From Sulfuricurvum sp. (GTDB taxonomy: Bacteria; Campylobacterota; Campylobacteria; Campylobacterales; Sulfurimonadaceae): a stretch of 64,000 nucleotides of DNA. Every line of letters starts with the position of its first letter. The first letter of the stretch is position 1. Below are positions 40,620 to 42,643 of the stretch, piece by piece. The notes beneath the pieces are model-generated. The model had not been told where the DNA came from. It worked only from the letters and a program-made list of their open reading frames with translations, and searched no databases. The position numbers and the translations under genes are program-made. The stretch covers positions 372,001 to 436,000 of the forward strand of contig NZ_JAQUHV010000001.1 in the NCBI RefSeq assembly GCF_028681615.1, given 5' to 3'.

Positions 40620-41087
40620 TTATGCTTGTAACTTCGCAAGTTCTTCTTTTACTTTTGCCACATGGTCTTTTACTTTTACATTCGCCCATGCCGCTTTTAC
40701 GATCCCTTTCGGATCGATGATATAGGTTGTGCGGACGATCCCCATGTACTCTTTGCCGTAATTTTTCTTCATTGCCCATACGCTGTAATCTTGCATCATC
40801 TGCGTGGTCGGGTCGCTGAGCAATGTAATTCCAAGTGATTTTTTCTCGATAAAGTTACGATGTGATTTGGTACTGTCGGCACTCACACCCAAAATGATCG
40901 CACCCATATCATCATACTCATCCATTGCATCGCTGAACTCGCACGCTTCGGTCGTACATCCGGGTGTCGAATCTTTCGGATAAAAATAGAGGACGATCCA
41001 TTTTCCGCGCAAATCGCGTGAACAGATCTCTACATCGTCTTGGTTGCTTAGACAAAAATCGGGGGCTGTGGTTCCTACTTCTAACAT
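40620..41087 (-). CDS. bcp: Thioredoxin-dependent thiol peroxidase (Bcp/PrxQ)
   Basis: A 155-residue peroxiredoxin that reduces hydroperoxides with electrons from thioredoxin. The peroxidatic C44 and resolving C49 are in STPGCTTEACEF, and FYPKD precedes them. GVSADSTKSHRNFIEKKSL is also typical. trxA and trxB, its likely electron source, are at 50260-51700. Confidence 0.95.
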   Translation of the reverse strand: MLEVGTTAPDFCLSNQDDVEICSRDLRGKWIVLYFYPKDSTPGCTTEACEFSDAMDEYDDMGAIILGVSADSTKSHRNFIEKKSLGITLLSDPTTQMMQDYSVWAMKKNYGKEYMGIVRTTYIIDPKGIVKAAWANVKVKDHVAKVKEELAKLQA

Positions 41088-41112: not shown

Positions 41113-41140
41113 GTACTTTTCTTTTTAGTAAGAAAAGTAC
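41113..41140. repeat. Palindrome, 11-bp perfect stem
   Basis: GTACTTTTCTT and AAGAAAAGTAC flank a 6-base loop, followed by CAAAAGAAC. The string resembles palindromic elements I have seen scattered in many proteobacterial genomes near convergent or silent intergenic sites. It lies upstream of bcp and forms a pair with the next repeat. Confidence 0.75.
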
Positions 41141-41152
41141 CAAAAGAACATA

Positions 41153-41222
41153 CCATGATCCAAGAACGCTCGCTCCTCTCGGCACTACTGCCTTCGGAGC
41201 GGCTCTTGGTGTTGGATCATGG
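41153..41222. repeat. Long imperfect inverted repeat
   Basis: CCATGATCCAA (41153-41163) and TTGGATCATGG (41212-41222) are perfect 11-base arms. Inside them GCTCC and GGAGC, and GGCA/TGCC, add more pairing, so the 70 bases can fold into one long hairpin. The right arm ends just before the stop of the aldehyde dehydrogenase gene. Confidence 0.75.
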
Positions 41223-41227
41223 AATTT

Positions 41228-42643
41228 TTATAGAATGACGATCGATTTTATCTCCGTAAACTCTTCGATAGCGAATCGCGGTCCCTCACGTCCGACACCG
41301 CTGAGCTTGACACCGCCGTAGGGCTGAATGTCAAACCGGAGCGTCGGCATATCGTTAATCACTACGCCGCCCGCATCGAGCTCATCAATCGCCTTCGTTG
41401 CATGGGCGAGATTATTGGTAAAGATCGAAAACTGCAATCCGTACGGCGAATTGTTCATCCGCTCTATTGCATCATCGATTCCATTTACCCGTACCAGACT
41501 CACGATCGGGGCAAATACCTCTTCACATACAATTTTCATCGACTCAGTTACATCCGCCATGACGCACGGATAAAAGATTCGTCCTTCCCGATGCGGAGGT
41601 GTCAATGCACGAGCACCCTCTTCGATAGCACTTTCGATCCAATTCATCGCACGTTCTGCGGCTTCATCATTGATCAACGGTCCTAAAAAAGTGTTCTCCT
41701 CGTACGGCGAACCGACCACAAGTCTAGACGTTGCTTCCGCCATTTTAAGAGCAAATTCGTCGTATATGGAGCTGTCTACATAGATACGCTGTAACGAAAT
41801 ACACACTTGCCCGGAGTTGACAAATGCACCGATGGCACAACGCCCTGCGGCATATTCCAAATCGGCACTTGTATCGATGTACGTTGCCGCATTACCGCCG
41901 AGTTCCAAGGAGATCTTTTTAATCCCCGCACTTTTTGTAATGATATTTCCGACCCCAACCGATCCCGTAAAACTGATGACTCTCGGGATATCACTGCCGA
42001 CTAAAGCACTTCCAACCTCCGCATCGCCGTAGACGACGCTCAATGCGTCAGGTGTAGCGTACGGACTTTCAATAAAAAGTTGTGCCAGTTTATACGCACA
42101 AAGCGGCGCTTCCGGAGTCGGTTTCAAGACTACCGTATTTCCGGCTACAAGTGCGGGGGCAAGTTTATGAGCAACGAGATTAAGCGGAAAGTTAAACGGG
42201 GTAATCGCCACGACTACCCCTACAGGCTCACGCCGCCAATACGCATGTGCTTTACGACCGCTCTCCATCGCATCGGTATTGATCGTCTCACCGTGCATCG
42301 TACGCATTGTTTCCGCTGAGAGGGTCATCGTCTCGACACACCGATCCACTTCGATCCGTGCATAGGTGATCGGCTTACCTACCTCATCACACAACACCTT
42401 TGCAAACTCTTCGCGCTGTTCTTTGAGTTTTGCCGCAACATCCAAAAGCCATGTACATCGCTGATGCAAAGGGACTTTTTTAGCGATTTTGGAAGCGTTT
42501 TGCGCAGTAACAAGTGCCTGACGAGCATCTTCGGCACTGCATTCTGCCGCACGGGAAACAACTCTTCCATCATACGGGCTGATGCGTTCACTGTACTCTT
42601 GTGCAACAACTTGTCGTGATCCCATCCAAATATGTGCATCCAT
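41228..42643 (-). CDS. Aldehyde dehydrogenase family protein
   Basis: A 471-residue NAD(P)-dependent aldehyde dehydrogenase. The catalytic Cys is in NSGQVCISLQRIYV (near 282) and the general-base Glu in LELGGNAATY (near 248); FNFPLNLVAHKLAPAL and GNTVVLKPTPEAP contact the cofactor. The QVCISLQR form is usual in lactaldehyde/glycolaldehyde and phosphonoacetaldehyde dehydrogenases, but the substrate cannot be assigned. No operon partner is evident; the downstream repeat element separates it from bcp. Confidence 0.88.
   Translation of the reverse strand: MDAHIWMGSRQVVAQEYSERISPYDGRVVSRAAECSAEDARQALVTAQNASKIAKKVPLHQRCTWLLDVAAKLKEQREEFAKVLCDEVGKPITYARIEVDRCVETMTLSAETMRTMHGETINTDAMESGRKAHAYWRREPVGVVVAITPFNFPLNLVAHKLAPALVAGNTVVLKPTPEAPLCAYKLAQLFIESPYATPDALSVVYGDAEVGSALVGSDIPRVISFTGSVGVGNIITKSAGIKKISLELGGNAATYIDTSADLEYAAGRCAIGAFVNSGQVCISLQRIYVDSSIYDEFALKMAEATSRLVVGSPYEENTFLGPLINDEAAERAMNWIESAIEEGARALTPPHREGRIFYPCVMADVTESMKIVCEEVFAPIVSLVRVNGIDDAIERMNNSPYGLQFSIFTNNLAHATKAIDELDAGGVVINDMPTLRFDIQPYGGVKLSGVGREGPRFAIEEFTEIKSIVIL

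Follow-up and report, generated by a model that had tools for sequence, protein, structure and literature searches.

What kind of element fills the gap between two minus-strand genes in a Sulfuricurvum genome, where the stop codon of an aldehyde dehydrogenase is followed by the start codon of a bcp-type peroxiredoxin? The gap holds two successive hairpins, HP1 and HP2 (Table 1). Short palindromic repeats are common in bacteria and, to our knowledge, the catalogued superfamilies that extend across phyla number only two, GTAG and CGTC. A sequence-only reading of the 64,000-nucleotide stretch analysed here (the window) had described a perfect 11-bp palindrome, a gap of 12 bases and a 70-base inverted repeat with perfect 11-base ends, a description that proved exact when we read the window again. 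The element folded more stably than any of 200 shuffled sequences (z = -6.7 on the plus strand, z = -8.0 on the minus strand).

Table 1. Parts of the two-hairpin element and its neighbours, in window coordinates.
Feature	Position	Strand	Remarks
HP1, perfect 11-bp palindromic hairpin	41113-41140		11/11 pairs perfect; read from window sequence; pairs kept by compensatory change
HP1 left arm GTACTTTTCTT	41113-41123	+	window sequence
HP1 loop TTTAGT	41124-41129	+	window sequence
HP1 right arm AAGAAAAGTAC	41130-41140	+	window sequence
A-rich linker CAAAAGAACATA, 12 bases	41141-41152	+	contains CAAAAGA tail, conserved with HP1 across phyla
HP2, 70-base inverted repeat, A-type (GATCC) subfamily	41153-41222	+	11 perfect end pairs
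HP2 outer stem CCATGATCCAA/TTGGATCATGG	41153-41163/41212-41222	+	window sequence; pairs kept by compensatory change
HP2 inner stem GCTCC/GGAGC	41172-41176/41196-41200	+	window sequence
HP2 apical stem GGCA/TGCC	41181-41184/41189-41192	+	window sequence
T-rich right edge AATTTTTAT (putative element edge)	41223-41231	+	common to A-type copies, consensus GGGAATTTTATA
Neighbour, bcp-type peroxiredoxin (AhpC-TSA)	40620-41087	-	start codon 25 bp from HP1; outside element
Neighbour, aldehyde dehydrogenase (ALDH)	41228-42643	-	stop codon 5 bp from HP2; outside element

The site is not unique, and the suggestion of a REP/MITE-like element was borne out insofar as it is a dispersed repeat. AAGAAAAGTACCAAAAGAA occurs only once in the window; the genome contains 8 copies of the element at 87-100% DNA identity, and a covariance model derived from 14 copies detected 19 at E<1e-7. 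Copies were present in 33 of the 37 Sulfuricurvum genomes, at 1 to 40 per genome. Outside the family, we searched 23 genomes of the same order and obtained a weak match in one. An A-type copy lies on a contig titled 'uncultured Sulfuricurvum' (L230).

Comparison of the copies revealed that both hairpins covary. Paired double changes filled 66 cells as against 22.8 ± 3.5 upon shuffling, and sliding the structure reduced them to 4-22; at 15 of the 27 modelled pairs, both sides changed while pairing was kept. Most of the variation falls in the outer stem of HP2, which divides into GATCC-, GCCCTCAC- and GTCCCAAA- subfamilies; thus, it is the pairing that has been kept among subfamilies and not the sequence. 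The unpaired AGAACGCT and GCTCTTGGTG of HP2 are conserved. Mismatches in the Sulfuricurvum stems (HP1, 3 G-U versus 19 A-C; HP2, 40 G-U versus 31 A-C) showed no plus-strand excess of G-U.

All 21 close pairs of copies were arranged as HP1-HP2 followed by HP2-HP1, with HP1 always facing outward, and nearly every pair joined one A-type with one B-type unit. The spacer between them measured 13-23 bp, or 47-55 bp where it included a small extra hairpin. Among about 85 placements in Sulfuricurvum, no unit lay between divergent genes; convergent genes accounted for the majority, including 17 unpaired units, and HP1 frequently lay 1-10 nt past a stop codon. Sampled copies adjoined housekeeping genes such as thiG, nusA, prfA, dapF, htpG, truA, a fabI-like gene and the glutamine synthetase gene. 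Unpaired units between codirectional genes took either direction, 11 lying stop/start and 8 start/stop in Sulfuricurvum and, across phyla, 12 and 23, respectively.

To follow one site through the genus, we compared the junction upstream of bcp across 30 species. The empty sites that the sequence-only reading had asked about do exist there: the majority of species have about 20 bp between the genes (e.g. GTAATTTCCTTCTTATAAAATAAC in G028). The element fills this junction in one orientation in G000, G009, G016 and G018, with a decayed copy in G061, and in the reverse orientation in G015 and G002. An unrelated AACGCCATCGGAA... hairpin repeat takes its place in G020 and G006 and is also present in G002, and a CCCGTCATTCCCG-type, CGTC-like repeat does so in G008, with variants in G026 and G034. 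The 3' side of thiG is similarly diverse. Some species have a solo A unit there, which may point either way; others have an A+B pair, with one order in G000, G012 and G017 and the opposite order in G004; G035 and G026 have HP1 alone, and further species have other repeat families. The sequence-only reading had asked whether the two hairpins always come together; they do so in nearly all Sulfuricurvum copies, but not in these HP1-only cases nor outside the genus, where HP1 is followed by other second hairpins.

TTTTAT stands on both flanks of the filled bcp site and once in the empty site, a suggestive sign of target duplication that carries little weight in flanks so rich in AT; the pairs displayed no clear target duplication. 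The bcp genes of G000 and G012 (L112, L113) are 99% identical and the adjacent intergenic region is filled in one and empty in the other, so recombination may have moved one side. The second, unrelated repeat, AACGCCATCGGAA..CCGATTGGCTACGTTAAC..GGGTTTACTTCGGCAGTAAGCCC with a ACGCCTACGGAG variant, was found in the element's gaps next to bcp and thiG in other species of Sulfuricurvum (L115, L139, L134, L349, L371), and CGTC-type repeats (CCCGTCATTCCCGCGAAGGCGGGAATCCAG) at the same junctions in L131, L351 and relatives. Certain junctions thus gather several repeat families.

From the polymorphism between species we infer mobility, and the element is probably a non-autonomous, REPIN/MITE-like mobile repeat of Sulfuricurvum that is copied or moved in trans. 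Its unit would comprise HP1, the CAAAAGA linker, HP2 and the T-rich edge, about 112 bp in total, and would occur either solo or as an inverted pair of an A-type and a B-type unit, about 245-285 bp long with HP1 outermost. An enzyme supplied in trans would copy or move this unit, probably by reading a folded single strand, as pairing is conserved while most of the HP2 outer-stem sequence is not. The unit would then land, or survive, where a short gap follows a gene, whereas the space between divergent promoters would always stay free of it.

The best-surviving alternative, which we nevertheless regard as unlikely, is that natural selection maintains a cis-acting RNA element at gene ends (a terminator, 3' stabiliser or insulator), its spread being secondary. 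The closeness of HP1 to stop codons, the mostly convergent placements and the T-rich edge 3' of HP2 would all suit such a role, as would the other hairpin repeats that fill the same gaps in other species; this refilling could indeed reflect selection for a hairpin rather than plain transposition. However, the element contains no terminator-like site (a GC-rich hairpin with a run of T immediately behind it), and the same junction exists with it in some species and without it in many, which speaks against the ordinary terminator that had also been considered. Moreover, neither a fixed orientation relative to the gene nor a plus-strand G-U excess was apparent. These last two results argue against a cis-acting transcript element and make a folded strand of DNA (possibly the bottom strand) the likelier substrate.

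As for the enzyme that a mobile repeat would need, linkage to a RAYT was rejected. The element's own genome has no Y1_Tnp, only 1 of the 20 Y1_Tnp loci of the genus had a copy nearby, and Y1_Tnp presence did not correlate with copy number across Sulfuricurvum (rho -0.16, p 0.33). No autonomous parent sharing the ends was seen among the sampled, Pfam-scanned neighbours or at 109 cross-phylum loci, and at the latter no recurrent protein family or recombinase stood beside HP1.

How does the element relate to known repeats? REP, REPIN and BIME sequences form the GTAG superfamily, mobilised by RAYTs (PMC3116915, PMC3733652) and defined by the tetranucleotide GTAG, which marks one foot of the hairpin (PMC3733652). 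They resemble our element in being dispersed intergenic palindromes after genes, present as singletons and as inverted dimers, often of two unlike units; the 21 of 21 inverted pairs with a spacer of 13-55 bp match the REP/REPIN dimers with their short spacer. In contrast to REP/REPIN, the aligned copies, which begin with GTAC, ATAC or TTTC and finish with GGGAATTTTA or GGGCA, have no GTAG tag. A REP spans 20-40 bp, whereas our unit has two hairpins over about 112 bp; it also lacks a linked RAYT and is present in fewer copies per genome (1-40). The CGTC repeats (dRS3, RPE) are characterised by a CGTC tag, an 8-9 bp stem and a CCA tail (PMC3733652), and share with the element a trans-phylum distribution, the lack of a dedicated transposase and a prevalence of inverted dimers. 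Unlike them, HP1 starts with GTAC/ACTTTTCT and continues to CAAAAGA, and neither HP1 nor HP2 has the CGTC tag or the 8-9 bp stem with CCA tail; the CGTC-like CCCGTCATTCCCG... repeats at the same junctions in other Sulfuricurvum species are a separate family. Tests for the two tags, and also for RAYT linkage in the case of REP, were negative, so the element is a member of neither the GTAG-REP nor the CGTC families.

MITEs and fold-back elements are likewise short, non-coding, dispersed and intergenic, with inverted ends and empty sites, but our element has a palindrome at each end instead of simple terminal inverted repeats, and neither an autonomous parent, among the loci sampled, nor a certain target-site duplication was found. 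Bor-1, a 117-bp intergenic stem-loop family of Bordetella (PMC2267715), is similar in size and placement; one Bordetella-labelled contig (L188) carries HP1. The element matched no Rfam family above the gathering score, and a literature search with raw sequence strings returned no published match.

The sequence-only reading had likened the first palindrome to one found in numerous bacterial genomes, and HP1 with its CAAAAGAA tail does recur in many unrelated bacteria. A search with the pattern ACTTTTCT-N4-14-AGAAAAGTA-N1-2-CAAAAGA matched at least 119 stretches of genome contigs, and the phyla among the matches listed were Pseudomonadota, Desulfobacterota-type lineages, Bacillota, Bacteroidota, Lentisphaerae, Elusimicrobia and Campylobacterota; distant BLAST with the HP1 consensus added Fusobacteriota through an Ilyobacter plasmid. 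HP1 with the CAAAAGA tail thus recurs in multiple copies in no fewer than eight phyla, with hosts as distant from one another as Sulfuricurvum, Xanthomonas, Selenomonadaceae, Rufibacter and Ilyobacter. In 28 genomes the exact pattern matched 2-67 times each and the backward pattern never; in viral contigs there were 29 matches and none to three permuted patterns. Its distribution within Campylobacterota is patchy, with matches in 17 of 397 genomes, from 4 genera.

Two second-hairpin motifs, with matches spanning several phyla, were enriched about 70- and 130-fold after HP1. AACTY..YTCRRACA, an HP2-like motif, lay within 300 nt downstream of 21 of 114 HP1 copies, compared with none upstream and 14 of 4397 control tiles (p 7e-26, inflated by related genomes), and a hairpin with an RTCCWT loop lay downstream of 14 of 107, compared with none upstream and 5 of 4341 control tiles (p 1e-19, likewise inflated by related genomes). 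Permuted loops in place of RTCCWT did not occur downstream of HP1. The Sulfuricurvum HP2 model found 0 matches in other phyla and neither of the two shared motifs, so homology of HP2 is supported within the genus only. Hairpins of the RTCCWT-loop kind (e.g. CGCCGCCCATCCATGGGCGGCG) follow HP1 in Gammaproteobacteria and Selenomonadaceae (L209, L210, L164, L171, L215 and others).

Complementarity between the HP1 loop and the bases that follow CAAAAGAAA occurs in many lineages, scoring 3.32 across phyla versus 2.55 ± 0.07 for shuffled partners, and 4.45 versus 3.66 ± 0.16 in one Selenomonadaceae genome (0 of 2000 shuffles). This complementarity would fit an H-type pseudoknot with the A-rich linker as the crossing loop, and it raises the rather improbable alternative of a trans-phylum structured RNA, either small or retroposed, that folds in this way. 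One Paraburkholderia HP1 copy moreover overlaps RF02421 (Bp1_684), a computationally predicted Burkholderia sRNA candidate. Yet the overlap involves only the flank of that copy, neither Sulfuricurvum nor any other locus scanned gave an RF02421 match, no general Rfam family covers the repeat, and no strand bias points to RNA. Loop-tail pairing was not evident in Selenomonadaceae genome G447 or in the aligned Sulfuricurvum copies, for which we rejected a pseudoknot. Least probable is a site for site-specific recombination, or else a terminus of some larger mobile element, to which the perfect palindrome, the inverted pairs and the HP1 in both arms of Paraburkholderia fold-back elements would lend themselves; nothing was found to support the dedicated recombination site once proposed; no recombinase or recurrent protein accompanied HP1 at the 109 cross-phylum loci, and the Sulfuricurvum pairs enclose only 13-55 bp. 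The Paraburkholderia fold-back elements are 400-580 bp long; each of their near-perfect arms measures about 200 nt and contains HP1 (L178:4240-4820, L184:5630-6120, L236:1940-2410), and one of them overlaps RF02421.

For the mobile repeat that we favour, HP1 with its tail would be a building block held in common with similar repeats of at least eight phyla. More tentatively, HP1 with CAAAAGA may represent a third trans-phylum palindromic superfamily beside GTAG and CGTC, one of modular make-up, in which HP1 is joined to any of several shared second hairpins and loop-to-tail pairing differs by lineage, and spread among at least eight phyla by one conserved enzyme reading the folded strand. Such a superfamily, with so strongly conserved a core, would imply a widespread and as yet unrecognised enzyme or host factor that recognises this core. 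The conserved core, together with genomes that carry many near-identical copies (32 in Rufibacter sediminis, 67 in Paraburkholderia), makes a search for the factor directly testable.

HP1 as a phage feature was rejected: the pattern is present in 29 viral contigs, yet the Sulfuricurvum HP1 query matched no annotated phage. In viral contigs L281, L301 and L306, identical HP1 copies adjoin phage-like gene clusters. In Rufibacter sediminis (L372-L402), about 32 intergenic sites, many of them at contig ends, carry a composite repeat that is several hundred bp long. A coding origin of this repeat was dismissed, as the ORFs that span it show no conservation at the protein level; its best conserved part is HP1-HP2.
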